From the IMG/VR virus record IMGVR_UViG_3300042559_001106, positions 1 to 48,135 of that record: a DNA stretch of 48,135 nucleotides, one strand, 5' to 3'. This document shows positions 36,257-43,431 of this stretch, in pieces (the first letter of the stretch is position 1; each line of letters starts with the position of its first letter). The notes beneath the pieces were generated by a model, which was given only the letters and a program-made list of their open reading frames with translations, made no database searches and was not told the origin of the DNA. Position numbers and translations under genes: made by a program. This stretch comes from a virus.

Positions 36257-37144
36257 CTTGTCCTTCTTACGGGGGCCATACGACCCGGAGGTGAACGCCG
36301 CAAACGCCTCTTTCGGCGGGGCCACGGCGTCGATCAGGCCCAACTTCATCGCGTCGCCGGCGTCGTAGGTACGGGCCTCGGTGTCGCGTACTGCCTTCTC
36401 GGCGAGACCACGGTTGCGTGCGACGTTCTGGACGAACACACCATAGGTCTTGTCAATGCGGGCCTGAATAGAGTCCCGCACTTCTTCTGTCAACGGGCGG
36501 TACGGCGACCCGTCAACCTTGTGCTTTCCGGCGTAGATGTGGGTGACGGTGATTCCCGCCTCCTTCAACGCCTTCGAGTAATCGACGTGCATGGTGACGA
36601 CGCCGATCGAACCGGCGCCGCCGGACGGCGTGGCGACGATCGAGTCCGCGGCCGAGGCCACCGCGTAGGCGGCGGAGTAGGCGGCGGTGTTCACCAGGGC
36701 CATGAGCGGCTTCTTGCCGCGCATCTGGTGGATCGTGTCGGAAAGCTCGAACGCGCCAGCGGCTTCGCCGCCGTAGCTGTCCACGTCCATCACGACGCGC
36801 GAGACGGTGGCGTCGTCCATCGCAGTCGCCAGCGCGCCTTCGATGTACTGGTAGCCGGTGACGAAGCCCCACGACGAGTTGAAGCGGTTGATGAGCGTGC
36901 CGTGGACGGGGACGATCGCCGTGTCGCCGACCTGGGCGTAGGGCTTCCGCTCGCTGCGCGGGTCGCCGTAGGCAGCGCAGAACGAGGTGAGGAAGTCTTC
37001 GGTTCCGTCGTCAAGCGCGTTGACGCCGGCGTTGAACGGCGTGTCGAGCATGTGGTGCACGGTCTCGCCGAGCGCGGTAAAGCTCGGCGCCACGAGCATC
37101 GGCTCGGCGGCGATGCGGCCGAGCAAGCCAAGGGCAGGATTCAT
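35831..37144 (-). CDS. Prohead protease, S49 family, with C-terminal scaffold region (437 aa)
   Basis: It processes the head during assembly. The S49/ClpP-like core spans residues ~70-290: VMDVDSYGGEAAGAFELS, NTAAYSAAYAVASAAD (likely catalytic Ser) and KHKVDGSPYRPLTEE (Lys side). The last ~140 residues are an acidic Ala/Pro-rich scaffold domain, as in lambda gpC. ATGA overlaps the portal stop. The nested scaffold gene is annotated separately. Confidence 0.9.
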   Translation of the reverse strand: MNPALGLLGRIAAEPMLVAPSFTALGETVHHMLDTPFNAGVNALDDGTEDFLTSFCAAYGDPRSERKPYAQVGDTAIVPVHGTLINRFNSSWGFVTGYQYIEGALATAMDDATVSRVVMDVDSYGGEAAGAFELSDTIHQMRGKKPLMALVNTAAYSAAYAVASAADSIVATPSGGAGSIGVVTMHVDYSKALKEAGITVTHIYAGKHKVDGSPYRPLTEEVRDSIQARIDKTYGVFVQNVARNRGLAEKAVRDTEARTYDAGDAMKLGLIDAVAPPKEAFAAFTSGSYGPRKKDKMQMSTEIETPATPEAGAAAAAPAAAPEAAAPAAPEVDAVAAERARVKSILSCEEADGRADLANHLALNTDLAVDAAKSILAVSPKADKKPAASGAAFAAAMATGNPEVGPDAGEASAGQKEDVVKRINLNHSLATGRKLAQ

Positions 37145-38763
37145 TCGGTGTCCTCGTTGTTGTTCTGCGGCCCGGCGGCGCCGGCCTGCTGCGCCGCCAG
37201 TTCTTCGGCGGTCGGGATCAGGCCAAGCTCTTCCATCATCTTCTTCTCGCGGGCCTGCTGACGGAGCACGCGGCGCCAGTCGCCACCGATGCGCGCGATT
37301 TCAGCTTCGCGCGTCGTGAGACCGGCCTTGATGCGAAGCTCGGCCGCCTGCGTTTCCTTGTACTCGTCGATCTGGCCGCGGCTCGCACCGATCCAGACGC
37401 ACTTCGTCAGCGCCTCGCGGTTCAGCCCCTCGTAGAAGAACTCAGGGCCGGCGCCGCCGGGGAGCGGGATTTCGCCTTTGTTGATCGCCTCTTCCAGCCA
37501 CAGCGCGTAGATCGCCGTCGCGAAGCGGTCGGCGATCATCTTCTTGATCGACTGCATCGCCTTCCACGTCTCGACCATCGAGGCGCGGGCACTGGAGTAG
37601 TTGGTGTTCGTGTAGTCGCGCGAGAACTGCTCGTAGCTCAGGCCGAGCGCGCTGGCGATGTGGCGCAAGAGGCTCTGCTCGTAGGCGGCGTAGCTGTTGC
37701 CCGGTGCGCCAGGCTGTTTGAAGTTCAGCTTCGTGCCGGGGAAGAGGTGCGGAATCTTCACGCCGTCGATCTGGAGCGCCTTCGAGCCGCCGGTGTAGCC
37801 GGCGATCTGGTCGAGGTAGCGCGTCAGGCCGTTGTCCTCCGGCGAGCCGGCGCCGAGCGCCTCCTGAATCACCTCGGGCGGAAGCTCCGACTCGATCGCG
37901 GCGGCGTAGGTCGCGTTGACCACGGCGCTCTGGAGCACGATCTCCTGGAACTTCTTGGTCATCCGCATCTGCTTGAGCACGGAGACCATGTGCGCGACGC
38001 CGCGCGTCTGCGCAGCGCGGTCGCGCTCGAAGATGTGGATGACCTGGAGGCGGCCCCAATTCTTGCGCGTCAGCACGCGCTTCCACGTCCACGACGGAGC
38101 CGCGGCATCGAGGAACTGCTCGTAGGGGTGCGCCAGCCGGATGTGGTAGGCGATCGGAGCGCCGTACTGGTCGAGTTCGACGCCGCCGCGCAGATAGCGC
38201 GTGTCGGCGAGGCCCTGCGGGTTGCTCAGGCGGTCGGGATCGACCATCTGGATCGCGGTCGAGTACGGCCGGCGCTGCACCGACGACCGCAGCCACTCCG
38301 CGGTTCCGAGGACTTCGCCGTGCATGAAGTGTTGCGCGATGGCGAGACGCACCAGCCCGGTGCCGTTCGACATGCGGCAGGCGTCCGGCCAGCACTCGTC
38401 GCTGTCCCACCACAGATCGAACTTCGATTCGACGATCTTCTGGAACTGCTCGGCCCACGCCTCGTCAGCGCCGAGCGCCTCATAGTCGGGCTGCGCGTTG
38501 AGCACGTACTGGTCGCCGACGATGCTGTCGCGCCGGATGTTCAGCGCGCCCATCACGTACCCGTCGTTGCGGGTCATGTCGCGGTTGCGCGCGTCCATGT
38601 CCAGCTTGTCGCGGGTGATCTCCGCGTCGGCCGACATGATCGGTGCGCGCCAGGCGGCAAGCTCCTGGCCGCGGCGCGAGGCGCCCTCGTAGGCGCCGCT
38701 GTTGGCCTGCGGCTCCAGCGTCTTGCCGTTCTCGTCGCGGATGGTGATGATCGGGTTGGGCAT
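37141..38763 (-). CDS. Portal protein (gpB family, 540 aa)
   Basis: It forms the dodecameric ring for DNA entry. GYVMGALNIRRDSIVGDQYV, HFMHGEVLGTAEWLR, VVNATYAAAIESELP and SALGLSYEQFSRDYTNTNYS (with SSARASMVETW following) match lambda-type portals. Length is typical. It starts 4 nt after the gpW stop and overlaps the protease start by ATGA. Confidence 0.95.
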   Translation of the reverse strand: MPNPIITIRDENGKTLEPQANSGAYEGASRRGQELAAWRAPIMSADAEITRDKLDMDARNRDMTRNDGYVMGALNIRRDSIVGDQYVLNAQPDYEALGADEAWAEQFQKIVESKFDLWWDSDECWPDACRMSNGTGLVRLAIAQHFMHGEVLGTAEWLRSSVQRRPYSTAIQMVDPDRLSNPQGLADTRYLRGGVELDQYGAPIAYHIRLAHPYEQFLDAAAPSWTWKRVLTRKNWGRLQVIHIFERDRAAQTRGVAHMVSVLKQMRMTKKFQEIVLQSAVVNATYAAAIESELPPEVIQEALGAGSPEDNGLTRYLDQIAGYTGGSKALQIDGVKIPHLFPGTKLNFKQPGAPGNSYAAYEQSLLRHIASALGLSYEQFSRDYTNTNYSSARASMVETWKAMQSIKKMIADRFATAIYALWLEEAINKGEIPLPGGAGPEFFYEGLNREALTKCVWIGASRGQIDEYKETQAAELRIKAGLTTREAEIARIGGDWRRVLRQQAREKKMMEELGLIPTAEELAAQQAGAAGPQNNNEDTE

Positions 38764-38766
38764 GGC

Positions 38767-38979
38767 TCAGAACATCGGCGTGAGGGGGCGACGGCGACCG
38801 GTGGTGCTGCCGGCCAGTTGCGCCTCAAGCTCCGCGATATACGCGCGCAGCCGGTCAGCGTTCGCGGAGGTGAATTCAATTCGTTCGCCCGAACTGTCCA
38901 CAATCACCCGTGCTGAACGACCCGTCATCAGGTCGTGGTAGGCCTGTTTTGCGGCGCGAAGTTGTTCGGCAAGAGTCAT
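38767..38979 (-). CDS. Head-tail joining protein gpW-like (70 aa)
   Basis: The pattern LRAAKQAYHDLMTGRSARVI, then EFTSANADRLRAYIAELEAQ, is typical of gpW, the small adaptor that plugs the portal after packaging. The start overlaps the HNH stop (ATGA). In lambda gpW lies directly after terL; here an HNH gene separates them. Confidence 0.92.
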   Translation of the reverse strand: MTLAEQLRAAKQAYHDLMTGRSARVIVDSSGERIEFTSANADRLRAYIAELEAQLAGSTTGRRRPLTPMF

Positions 38980-38981
38980 GC
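38967..38981. repeat. 15-bp repeat at the HNH/gpW junction
   Basis: On the minus strand GCATGACTCTTGCCG spans the start of gpW. It matches 13 of 15 bases of the sequence at 39695-39709 (GCATGACCCTCGCCG), where the terL stop meets the HNH start. The pair brackets the HNH gene and each recreates an ATGA junction. Confidence 0.8.
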
Positions 38982-39707
38982 AGGCATCTCGATCTGGTTG
39001 TGCTTACGACGGTTGGTGGAGCGCGGGATGACTTGAAGATTCCAAGGCACATGCAAGCCGCTCACCGTTGCGCCGCGAAGAGGGACGATGTGGTCGACCT
39101 CGTGCGGAACTCCCGTAGTAGCAGAGACCACTTGGGCGTGAGAATACACATCCCGCATCTCTTTGCGATCCCCTCGCGTCAACCAGTGTGGGGCGGCTCG
39201 ATACTTTGCGGCACGCCGGAGATTAGTTTTCTCGTTGCACTTTTCTTTGTTGTTTGCAGCCCAAACAGAGCCTCGTTTTCGTGCAGCCGCTAAATACGAC
39301 GGGTCGTTCTTCAACTTTGAATGGTATTTAGCTTTGTCGTTTTCCCTGCGCTTTGCTTTGTAGTCTTCCGATTTCCTTAGTTTCGATAGCCTTTCCGCTT
39401 TTGATTTACGAAGACTTTCGTTGGCTGCGTAAGCCTTTCGATTTCGCTCCCTTACGTGCTCGGCGTACTCTGGATCGTTTTTCATCCTGTGGGCGTGGCG
39501 CTCAAGTGCGGCCTTGCGATGTTCTTTCAACATCTCCGGGTCTTTTGCGCGGTTCCGATCACGCAGACAGACCTGACACAAACCGGAGTTTGTGATTCGG
39601 ACAGGATTTGCGTGCCCGTTCCTGCACGGCTTGGAATCGGCGTAGTGCTTCGATCCAAAAAGACGCGCTTCCTTTTTGGAGGAAGGAATGTGGGCGGCGA
39701 GGGTCAT
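38976..39707 (-). CDS. Free-standing HNH endonuclease between terL and gpW (243 aa)
   Basis: The C-terminal HNH motif is clear: HEVDHIVPLRGATVSGLHVP (residues ~205-224) and NLQVIPRSTNRRKHN. The N-terminus has a CxNGH / CQVC zinc-knuckle-like part, and the middle is a long Lys/Arg-rich helix (RKSKAERLSKLRKSEDYKAK). The gene appears less GC-rich and more Lys-rich than its neighbours, a sign of transfer. It is coupled by ATGA on both sides and flanked by 15-bp near-identical repeats. It is probably a homing endonuclease. Confidence 0.9.
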   Translation of the reverse strand: MTLAAHIPSSKKEARLFGSKHYADSKPCRNGHANPVRITNSGLCQVCLRDRNRAKDPEMLKEHRKAALERHAHRMKNDPEYAEHVRERNRKAYAANESLRKSKAERLSKLRKSEDYKAKRRENDKAKYHSKLKNDPSYLAAARKRGSVWAANNKEKCNEKTNLRRAAKYRAAPHWLTRGDRKEMRDVYSHAQVVSATTGVPHEVDHIVPLRGATVSGLHVPWNLQVIPRSTNRRKHNQIEMPA

Positions 39708-39709
39708 GC
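39695..39709. repeat. 15-bp repeat at the terL/HNH junction
   Basis: Partner of 38967-38981 (13/15 identical). Both copies encode M-T-L-A at the start of the following protein, so HNH and gpW share an N-terminal tetrapeptide. Confidence 0.8.
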
Positions 39710-42700
39710 GAGCTTCGCGGCCAGATCGGCGAGCTTGTTATAGGAGCCCTTCTTCGGCTCGGCAACAGGCTTGTTTGCGGGGAAGAAGTGCGCGTTCTTT
39801 TCCGGTAGTTCCGCAAACGACGGCGGAGCTTCCCAATTAATTCGGTCTACCTTCTTGTGGCGCAACACGCCGAGTAAATACGTCGCCAAGTCCCACGCTT
39901 CATTTCGGGCCTTACGCGGATTCTCCCAACCTTTGTCGGTTCGCCTCTCGGCGCACATTTCCTCGTACCAGTTGTCGGGCAACCACACCGGCCACTCCAG
40001 TGAGCCGCCGTCGACGGTCGCGCGCTCGATCATGCCCGCGAGGTCGTCTTTCAGGAGGTTGACGTTGAGCAGCATCACCGGCACGTCGCCGCGCGCCGCG
40101 GCGCTGCGATCCTTCTTCTGTGCGTCGGGGAAGCTGATTCGGACGCGCGGGGCGCCGGCGTTGTTGCCTTCGCCTTTCACGAGGAAGAAGCGCGCGTGCT
40201 CGCCAGAGCCTTCGCGACGCAGCTTGCGGAAGAAGTCGTAGGCGTTGGCGGTCACGCCGTCCTTACCGCCGGAGTCGCAGGCGATGAACGCGATGCCGAG
40301 TTCGCCGCTGCCGTCCGCCAGTGGGTAGCGGCGCTCGATGATCTGCTCGCGCACCAAGTCCCAATCTTCGAGGAACGCGCCGGGCTTCACCCACAGCGCG
40401 TCGCCGTCGTCGTCGCGGCGCTTGGACTTCCTGATCTCGAAGCGGTCGATCACGCACGCCTTGAACGGCTCGCCGGCGCTGCCGGGGCCGACACCGAAGA
40501 CCTGAGCGACCCACTGGTTCTTCTGCACGTCCGCCGTCGCCACGAGGAACCGCACGCCGGCCGGGATTTGCTGCTCGGGCAATTCGGATGCGCGCTGCTT
40601 GAGTTCGTCCGGGCTGCGCAGCGACTCGGAGCCGCGCGGGTAGTACGGCTCGCCTTGATCGGTGTTGACCGTGGACTTGAGCGCCTCCTGCGAGCCCGTG
40701 CGCTCGAACTCCTGCTCGGCCAGTAGGTAGCGGCTCACGAGGTCGCTCCACTTCGCGAACGTGGCCGCCGGCCCCTTCATCCAGAAGCTCGCGATGTCGC
40801 TGCGGATCGCCGTGCCTTCGAGCACGTCGTCGCGCGTGAGCTTCTGGCCGTCCCTGATCCATCGGCCGGCGCGGTTCAGCGTGTGCTTCATGCCGGGGTC
40901 GATCAGCGCGGTGCAGTGCGGGCACATCATCTTCGCGCTCTCGGCGCTCTCCATGATGTCCTTCGAGTCCACCCACTTGATGAGGTTGAAGCTCGGCTCG
41001 AACCACTCGCCGCAGTGCGGGCACTTCCAGTACCAGCGGCGACGGTCGCCGCGGTTGTAGAGCGCGAGGATGCCGGGGCAGGGCGGCGCTTCGTGCGGCG
41101 TGCGGCGCAGCCAGCGGGGGTCTTCGACGGTGTGGCCCGGCGACGACTCGGCGATCGTGCAGGCCGCGGTGCCGAAGGTCGTGGTGCGCTTGCGCGCCAA
41201 GTCGAAGGGCGAGCCTTCGCCGTCCACGTCCATCGGCATACGGTCGTAGTCGGTGAGAATGACGCGGCCCACCGGACGGCCTGAGAGTTCGTTGATCGTC
41301 GGCCACGAGAGCGTGAGAATCATCCCCGACAGGTAGAACTTGTCGAACGTGTTGTCGCTGTCGCCGCCGGGCATCATGCGCTTGCCGACTTCCGCCGAGT
41401 GGCGGTGCAGGCGGTCGATTCGGCGGCGCGAGAAGTCGCGCGCCATCGTCTGCGAGGTCTGGTAGACCAGCATGTCCATCGGATCGCACACGACCGAATA
41501 GACGATCGGGTTCACGATGAGCGCGTCAGTGTTGTGCGTCGGCACCATGCTCCGCGTGCAGAGGAACAAATGATCGGCGTTGTCGACTTGGATGCACCGA
41601 ACGGGAACACTGGCGACCGGCTTGACCGAAACGATCATGCGGCGCTCAGTGTAGGTCGGGCGCGACTTGGCTCGATCCCGCTGCCTAGCGCGCTTGCGCG
41701 CTAGGTTGAACACCGGCGTGTCGGAATAGGCAAAGAACGTGATCGTCTTCGCGGGCTTGCCGTCGACCAAAACGCCTTTGTGCCGTGTCTTAGGCGCCTT
41801 GTCGATGGTGCGGTACTTGAACCCGAGAGAAGCCAACAACTCGCAGATACCGTCTGCTAGTTCTGGCGAGGTCGTCGTGAACGAGCAGGCACCGTTCTTC
41901 CCGCAAGTGCCGTCCGTGTCCATCAAGCCGCGGAGCAACTGCAAACGCTGGCCTTGGCTCGCGCGAAGGTAAGTGGCTGGAATGTGCTTCCGGCCACCCG
42001 ATCCTTTGTGCAGCCCGAGATCGCGCAGGCGATCGCAGAATGCGTTGTGCTGGTCTACGAGAAGAACACCGAGGCGCTTCTCGTCCATCTCTACTTCGAC
42101 AAAATGGCCCTCTGCACGAATGTGATTGGCGGTTTCAAGAACATCGTCGAGAGCGCCGTAGATTCGGCACGTCCGCGAGTGCCCGTCTCCGAGCCAACTA
42201 CCCAAGGTGTAGGGGCCAATCGGAAGTGGAGCCGCAGGCAACTCAATCGGCTTTGTGTTCCGAACGGCGAAGGTGGAGCGGTTTGATTTGCCGAAACGAT
42301 GCTTCGGCTCGATCTCGCCGGTGGTCATCACTTTCGACCAACCGTTCTGCGACTCGACCAGCCACTTGTGGTCGCGATCCGCGATCACTTTGGTGCCGTC
42401 ATCGAACTCGACCTCGAAGCAATCGTGGTCGAGCATCACTTCCGTAGCAAAGACGACGCGGCAAGGCTTCCCGTCCGCACCGATGAGTTCGTCACCAACG
42501 CGAACGTCGCCCATGCTTGTCCAGCCGCTCGGCGTCGGGAGCGGCGTATCGAGCGCCAGTGCCTTGCCGCACTGTGCAGGGCCGACGAAGATCACCGAGT
42601 TGAACTTGCGGTTCGTCATCTCGTCGGCCGGCTCGACCATGTACGGCGTCGTGTCGTTGCGCCACGGGCCAACGTAGGAGCCGGGGTTGTTGACGTAGCG

Positions 42701-42805
42701 GTACTTCTCCGCGGCGTCGCTCACCGACAGGCGCTCCGGCGGACGCAGCACTTCCGCCAGTTCGCAGATCATCTCGCCGAGGCCCTTGTAGCTGCGCTCC
42801 ATCAC
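39704..42805 (-). CDS. terL: Terminase large subunit (GpA family) with intein in Walker A (1033 aa precursor, 689 aa spliced)
   Basis: It packages DNA using ATP and cuts genomic concatemers. Walker A reads GPAQCGK at residues 75-81 and resumes with Thr426 after the intein, giving GPAQCGKT. Walker B-like VILTDYD lies at ~515-521. Two CPHC pairs (595-598, 628-631) are typical of GpA, and a nuclease region follows with AFIACDSGGKDG (839-850). The start is GTG at 42805 or ATG at 42802, both overlapping the terS stop. Without splicing the ATPase site would be broken. Confidence 0.95.
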   Translation of the reverse strand: MMERSYKGLGEMICELAEVLRPPERLSVSDAAEKYRYVNNPGSYVGPWRNDTTPYMVEPADEMTNRKFNSVIFVGPAQCGKALALDTPLPTPSGWTSMGDVRVGDELIGADGKPCRVVFATEVMLDHDCFEVEFDDGTKVIADRDHKWLVESQNGWSKVMTTGEIEPKHRFGKSNRSTFAVRNTKPIELPAAPLPIGPYTLGSWLGDGHSRTCRIYGALDDVLETANHIRAEGHFVEVEMDEKRLGVLLVDQHNAFCDRLRDLGLHKGSGGRKHIPATYLRASQGQRLQLLRGLMDTDGTCGKNGACSFTTTSPELADGICELLASLGFKYRTIDKAPKTRHKGVLVDGKPAKTITFFAYSDTPVFNLARKRARQRDRAKSRPTYTERRMIVSVKPVASVPVRCIQVDNADHLFLCTRSMVPTHNTDALIVNPIVYSVVCDPMDMLVYQTSQTMARDFSRRRIDRLHRHSAEVGKRMMPGGDSDNTFDKFYLSGMILTLSWPTINELSGRPVGRVILTDYDRMPMDVDGEGSPFDLARKRTTTFGTAACTIAESSPGHTVEDPRWLRRTPHEAPPCPGILALYNRGDRRRWYWKCPHCGEWFEPSFNLIKWVDSKDIMESAESAKMMCPHCTALIDPGMKHTLNRAGRWIRDGQKLTRDDVLEGTAIRSDIASFWMKGPAATFAKWSDLVSRYLLAEQEFERTGSQEALKSTVNTDQGEPYYPRGSESLRSPDELKQRASELPEQQIPAGVRFLVATADVQKNQWVAQVFGVGPGSAGEPFKACVIDRFEIRKSKRRDDDGDALWVKPGAFLEDWDLVREQIIERRYPLADGSGELGIAFIACDSGGKDGVTANAYDFFRKLRREGSGEHARFFLVKGEGNNAGAPRVRISFPDAQKKDRSAAARGDVPVMLLNVNLLKDDLAGMIERATVDGGSLEWPVWLPDNWYEEMCAERRTDKGWENPRKARNEAWDLATYLLGVLRHKKVDRINWEAPPSFAELPEKNAHFFPANKPVAEPKKGSYNKLADLAAKLA
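39737..39765 (-). promoter_or_regulatory. Candidate promoter inside the terL 3' end (TTGCCG-17-TATAAC)
   Basis: TTGCCG (4/6) and TATAAC at 17-bp spacing, with GGCTCCTATAACA identical over 13 bases to the candidate at 16274. It lies 29 nt before the HNH start and is within the codons for KKGSYNK, so it could be chance or a promoter for the HNH gene. Confidence 0.45.
41531..42562 (-). mobile_element. Ala1 intein with class 3 (W-C-T) signature and LAGLIDADG domain in TerL (344 aa)
   Basis: The element begins Ala82 (ALALDTPLPTPSGW) rather than Cys, and ends PTHN (422-425) followed by Thr426 as +1. Block B has DHKW (145-148) with His146 and Trp148, block F has PVRCIQVD with Cys404, and Thr423 precedes the terminal His-Asn. 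These Trp, Cys and Thr positions form the W-C-T triplet of class 3 inteins, which use the block F Cys in place of residue 1. LGSWLGDGH (201-209) and LLRGLMDTDG (290-299) are LAGLIDADG motifs, so homing activity is likely. Confidence 0.93.
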
Positions 42806-43431
42806 AGACCTCCGAACGGGTCGTCTTCTTCGGTGCTCTTGTTGAGCGTGGCGCTCGGCGGCCCCTTCTCGAAGATTTCGTCGCGGTCGCCGTCGACCGG
42901 CAGATTCTTGAAGTGCTCGATCACGGCGTCGTGCAGATCGTTGAGCAGGCCGTCCGCCATCGCTTGCACGATCGCGCGCTGCTCGTCGGTGAGGCCGGTC
43001 TGCCGATCCACCGTGTCGGCGAACAGCATCGTCCGCTGCCGCACGACCTTGAACAGATCGGCGACCGCGCGCTGCACCTTGTCAGTGCGCCACAGGTGGC
43101 CGGCGTCGGCCATGAACTTGAGGCGGCCGTTCTGCGCATCCCAAAACTGCTTCTGGATGCCCTGCGGCATGTCTTGGGGGCGCAGCTTCTTGAGGTACGC
43201 CTCCAAGTCGACCTTCGGCTGCACGAGGAACTCGGCGGCTTCGGCGACGTTGTAGAGCGGGTAGCCGTTGCGCTCGCCCACCGGCTTGAGGTCGCGAATC
43301 TTCCGGCGCGCGGTGTCGACCTCCATGCGGAACAGCCGGGAGATCGTGCTCACCGGCAGGCCCTTCATCAGCCAGTCGTAGACTTGCCGGTAGCCGATGT
43401 CCTCGCTGGTCTCGACCGGATCAGCAGCCAC
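42802..43431 (-). CDS. terS: Terminase small subunit (Nu1/DUF1441-like, 209 aa)
   Basis: It recognises the packaging site on DNA and recruits TerL. The N-terminal winged-helix-like part (YRQVYDWLMKGLPVSTISRL, MEVDTARRKIRDLKPVGERN) matches the Nu1/DUF1441 type, with a helical middle (YLKKLRPQDMPQGIQKQFWD). The C-terminal tail is acidic (STEEDDPFGGL), probably the TerL contact. It precedes terL and overlaps it. Confidence 0.88.
   Translation of the reverse strand: MAADPVETSEDIGYRQVYDWLMKGLPVSTISRLFRMEVDTARRKIRDLKPVGERNGYPLYNVAEAAEFLVQPKVDLEAYLKKLRPQDMPQGIQKQFWDAQNGRLKFMADAGHLWRTDKVQRAVADLFKVVRQRTMLFADTVDRQTGLTDEQRAIVQAMADGLLNDLHDAVIEHFKNLPVDGDRDEIFEKGPPSATLNKSTEEDDPFGGL

Follow-up and report, generated by a model that had tools for sequence, protein, structure and literature searches.

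Class 3 inteins are defined by a Trp at block B position 12 (B:12), a Cys at F:4 and a Thr at G:5, together the WCT set (PMC3196547). Among solved structures, the splicing domain described here is most closely related to the mycobacterial DnaB1 inteins MchDnaB1 and MsmDnaB1 (DnaBi1; PDB 6RIX, 6RIY and 6BS8). In the 6RIX structure, H65, W67, C124 and T143 constitute the class 3 active site, and their catalytic roles have been described (PMC7664689). The crystallised proteins are about 140 aa long, lack an endonuclease and reside in the DnaB helicase; related actinobacterial DnaB inteins are placed after the Lys of the P-loop.

In phage terminases, the 'classic' P-loop insertion splits the Walker A motif between its invariant Lys and Thr (K|T) and is exemplified by the mycobacteriophage TerL1-a inteins (PMC5050341). 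Both the active site and the motor complex have been argued to depend on splicing of TerL1-a, and the terminase inteins of the same survey were confined to TerL1, TerL6 and a TerL-like protein (PMC5050341). A literature search on class 3 inteins in the terminase large subunit returned no match, the relevant account being PMC5050341. Class 3 inteins in phages had been published by 2016, as had insertions at K|T in the P-loop of terminases (PMC5050341); the original prediction had likewise called class 3 inteins in phage terminases and helicases known. The gp17 inteins of the Krischviruses ECD7 and Ec_Makalu_002 likewise carry the class 3 WCT set and a LAGLIDADG domain, lie at K|T of the terminase large subunit (TerL) and occur in pairs of intein-plus and intein-minus sister phages.

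Here we analyzed a viral record of 48,135 bases in its entirety (the window). With a probability of about 0.95, it encodes a mobile intein of class 3 that harbours a LAGLIDADG homing endonuclease and lies at the Walker A K|T of a GpA-family phage TerL. The intein shares Ala1, His65, W67, the block-F Cys, the block-G Thr and the THN end with the mycobacterial DnaB1 inteins and differs from them by its LAGLIDADG domain and its host protein. Like the TerL1-a inteins it interrupts a phage terminase between Lys and Thr; however, TerL1 belongs to a different terminase family, whereas the extein here is of the GpA family (PF05876/PF20454). The Krischvirus host protein is a T4-type gp17 terminase, and intein identity is 39%.

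The terL gene and its insert

The terL ORF (39704-42805, minus strand) stays open across 1033 codons. Pfam identified GpA_ATPase (PF05876, E 3.7e-65), GpA_nuclease (PF20454, E 5.2e-60) and LAGLIDADG_3 domains, and PHROGs assigned the ORF to phrog_15, terminase large subunit (E 1.4e-257). The presence of both the ATPase and the nuclease domain places the protein in the GpA family, and judged by its sequence the ORF is a GpA-family large terminase split by a 344-aa element. The N-extein (residues 1-81; 42563-42805, minus strand) begins with a GTG start codon, ends in GPAQCGK and shares 90% identity with TerL of two close relatives that lack the intein, L013 and L016. It is followed on the same strand by the intein (residues 82-425; 41531-42562), which runs from A1 to THN, and by the C-extein (residues 426-1033; 39704-41530), which contains the remaining GpA ATPase domain and the GpA nuclease domain.

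The insertion point lies between Lys81 and Thr426, at K|T of GxxxxGKT. GPAQCGK (residues 75-81; 42563-42583, minus strand) supplies the first seven Walker A residues, and the eighth, Thr426 (41528-41530, minus strand), lies beyond the intein. Relatives with an intein at this site also have Thr at +1. We recomputed K81, A82, H146, W148, C404, T423, H424, N425 and T426 from the ORF, which confirmed the original prediction that Thr426 is both the +1 residue and the Walker A Thr of GPAQCGKT. Every number given there was reproduced as well: the element at 41531-42562, its 344 aa, and a 1033-aa precursor made up of the intein and 689 aa of joined exteins.

The gene lies within a packaging module, between the gene for the terminase small subunit TerS (42802-43431) and that for a lambda-type portal (37141-38763). 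When the SNF2 helicase, DNA polymerase A and portal proteins of the window were scanned with Pfam, NCBIfam and PHROG, none of them showed signs of a further intein. Between terL and the portal we observed a 243-aa ORF (38976-39707, minus strand) with a weak C-terminal match of the HNH or endonuclease VII-like type. Since the region of about 38980-39695 is absent from both L013 and L016, this ORF looks like a further mobile endonuclease, one that stands free beside terL. Divergence between the window and L013 is elevated directly downstream of it.

Class 3 assignment and predicted splicing

The splicing domain matched three solved class 3 inteins, 6RIX, 6RIY and 6BS8, with E values of 2.5e-38 to 6e-35, a similarity that is therefore not due to chance; the best match was MchDnaB1 (6RIX, E 2.5e-38). 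Intein positions 65, 67, 323 and 342 aligned unambiguously with H65, W67, C124 and T143 of 6RIX. The first of these, His146 (intein H65; 42368-42370), is the block B His and corresponds to the catalytic His65 of MchDnaB1. Trp148 (intein W67; 42362-42364) occupies B:12, counted through G-T-K-V-I-A-D-R-D-H-K-W, Cys404 (intein C323; 41594-41596) occupies F:4 and is the predicted first nucleophile, and Thr423 (intein T342; 41537-41539) occupies G:5, all on the minus strand. Residue 1 is A82, so that Cys1 or Ser1 is absent, which is usual but not absolute in class 3. In an alignment of 16 sequences, A1, H65, W67, C323, T342, H343 and N344 were invariant, and in a wider alignment of about 33 rows the WCT set, the His and THN were nearly so, with few exceptions. 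The column match to 6RIX and about 30 relatives bears out the earlier claim that Ala1, Trp148, Cys404 and Thr423 stand at class 3 positions, with Trp148 inside block B and Cys404 inside block F.

The nearest sequence relatives of the intein are class 3 inteins, which together with the WCT set supports its class 3 assignment. It is hardly credible that the element is a mislabelled ordinary intein of class 1 or class 2 or some other domain insertion: a first residue that is neither Cys nor Ser would, taken alone, fit class 2 too, but the WCT set is complete and the closest similarity is to proven class 3 inteins. Assignment to class 1 or class 2 was rejected on the basis of WCT and the nearest relatives.

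Splicing chemistry and homing activity can be predicted from the intein's family. Cys404, activated by His146 with Thr423 and with Trp148 in support, would attack the Lys81-Ala82 bond and hold the N-extein in thioester linkage until the N-extein passes to Thr426. Cyclisation of Asn425 and a subsequent acyl shift would then yield a TerL of 689 aa whose GPAQCGKT loop is restored, and a peptide across the joint would span GPAQCGKTDALIVNPIVY. Given the biochemistry of class 3 and the placement within GxxxxGK|T, we infer both this order of events and that TerL would have to be spliced before it can bind ATP, the unspliced protein being inactive. For a mycobacterial DnaB intein, redox-sensitive splicing has been proposed (PMC6195587). 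By analogy, splicing of the TerL intein might be conditional, for example redox-sensitive via the block-F Cys, and might gate the onset of DNA packaging, although we consider this improbable.

A degenerate, non-splicing class 3 intein, similar to the Arthrobacter Arth_1007 pseudogene and leaving TerL dead, is very unlikely. Such class 3 intein pseudogenes exist (PMC3196547), and one relative, L007, lacks the Cys, Thr and His of the splice set. In the TerL intein, however, no splice residue is lost, block A and THN are intact and the frame is open across 1033 codons, and the position of terL beside TerS and the portal also argues against a dead gene. We conclude from the sequence that the element is a genuine and probably active mobile class 3 intein, for which splicing and homing are predicted.

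Endonuclease, empty sites and mobility

The original prediction of a full-length class 3 intein with a LAGLIDADG endonuclease held, as the endonuclease domain is complete and Asp is present at both catalytic positions. Motif 1 (YTLGSWLGDG, block C, Asp207; 42182-42211, minus strand) was located by alignment, and motif 2 (LLRGLMDTDGT, block E, Asp298; 41906-41938, minus strand) by alignment and Pfam; their cores, LGSWLGDG and LRGLMDTDG, are intact. The Pfam LAGLIDADG_3 score was modest (30 bits), yet above the cut-off. An AlphaFold2 model of the intein, computed from the 16-row alignment, reached a pLDDT of 91.1 and a pTM of 0.90. Foldseek matched this model best to PI-SceI (E 7e-21), followed by 6rix, 6riy and 6bs8 (E about 1e-11), and further matches were archaeal VMA inteins and I-DmoI. 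These matches suggest a predicted fold in which an endonuclease is inserted into a splicing domain of the HINT type. The endonuclease would cut intein-free terL alleles, its predicted target being the joined terL site GGCAAG|ACTGAC, and the intein would thereby be copied into them.

We found relatives of the intein in 537 phage records, 506 of which cover at least 80% of it; all are below 60% identity, and no copy more than 60% identical across the full length was found among them. Additionally, we collected 66 viral terminase loci using the C-extein as a query. The two closest relatives with an intact junction (97% and 88% in the C-extein) lack the intein and have uninterrupted GPAQTGKS and GPAQCGKT motifs, and a clean empty site at the insertion codon is present in L013, L016 and many others. 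Related inteins occupy exactly the same codon in the GpA-type terminases of L024, L038/L039 and L069, and local sequence context places those of L079 and L080 at the same point. L069 carries an intein, whereas its sisters L018 and L049, 97-99% identical, do not. The joined exteins match the terminases of Aeromonas phiWae15, Pectobacterium MA11, BcepNazgul and others in one uninterrupted piece (96-100% of the length, 51-54% identity), so these phages lack the intein. This pattern of presence and absence fits a mobile element.

Another reading is that splicing has been retained while the endonuclease has become inactive, so that the class 3 intein is now inherited and no longer mobile; this is rather unlikely, though the least so of the alternatives. 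LAGLIDADG domains of inteins often decay, and in two relatives from Dactylosporangium, L086 and L087, the motif has degenerated to DTGG. Against this stand the intact motifs of the TerL intein (LGDG and DTDG), the high-confidence predicted fold of its endonuclease domain and the close relatives without an intein, as expected of a mobile element.

In a tree of the inteins, those at the GpA site were not resolved, and L038 grouped with a T4-like TerL intein (97/95). Single descent of the same-site GpA inteins was rejected on this basis, and common descent and exchange between terminase families are equally likely. The relative L007 (3998-5068) has Ser in place of the block-F Cys, has lost the block-G Thr and the block-B His and shows a stop codon directly after the match; from these changes it is probably either a free-standing endonuclease or an intein that has decayed. 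In Actinomadura rupiterrae, L088 (4001-4411) belongs to this intein type but spans 137 aa and lacks the endonuclease; it lies in a DnaB-like P-loop context, and its best segment is 58% identical to the splicing blocks of the window although the host protein differs.

The DNA of the window and L013 is 94% identical overall, compared to 70% within 48 bp on either side of the insertion (L013 1200-1300 against window 41480-41530 and 42563-42610). Within these flanks L013 is equally distant from L016, and this comparison, together with control pairs, identifies L013 as the outlier whatever the intein state. Precisely where homing would take place, L013 thus carries a patch that is foreign or recoded. 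In Krischviruses, the flanks can be identical whether or not the intein is present. A recoded, homing-resistant target in intein-free sister phages was therefore rejected as a general rule.

Relation to other terminase inteins

The terminase of Acidovorax phage ACF1 (MZ547449; L089 460-1512), annotated in the public record simply as terminase large subunit, contains a related intein at the same GPAxxGK|T insertion point, also with WCT. It differs from the TerL intein by an identity of 39%, by Cys1 instead of Ala1 and by LGNG, with Asn for Asp, in the first LAGLIDADG motif. Owing to its Cys1 and intact WCT set, it holds both possible first nucleophiles, which makes it a test case for the relation of class 1 to class 3.

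Since class 3 inteins in phages, like terminase inteins at K|T, were already known, our addition is the GpA host terminase family and not a new system, and general knowledge of inteins is left unchanged. GpA terminases join the families with class 3 inteins at Walker A, with several related inserts at one codon whose carriers include phages and bacterial assemblies. In addition, the locus and its relatives provide a clean set of intein-present and intein-absent alleles for homing studies.
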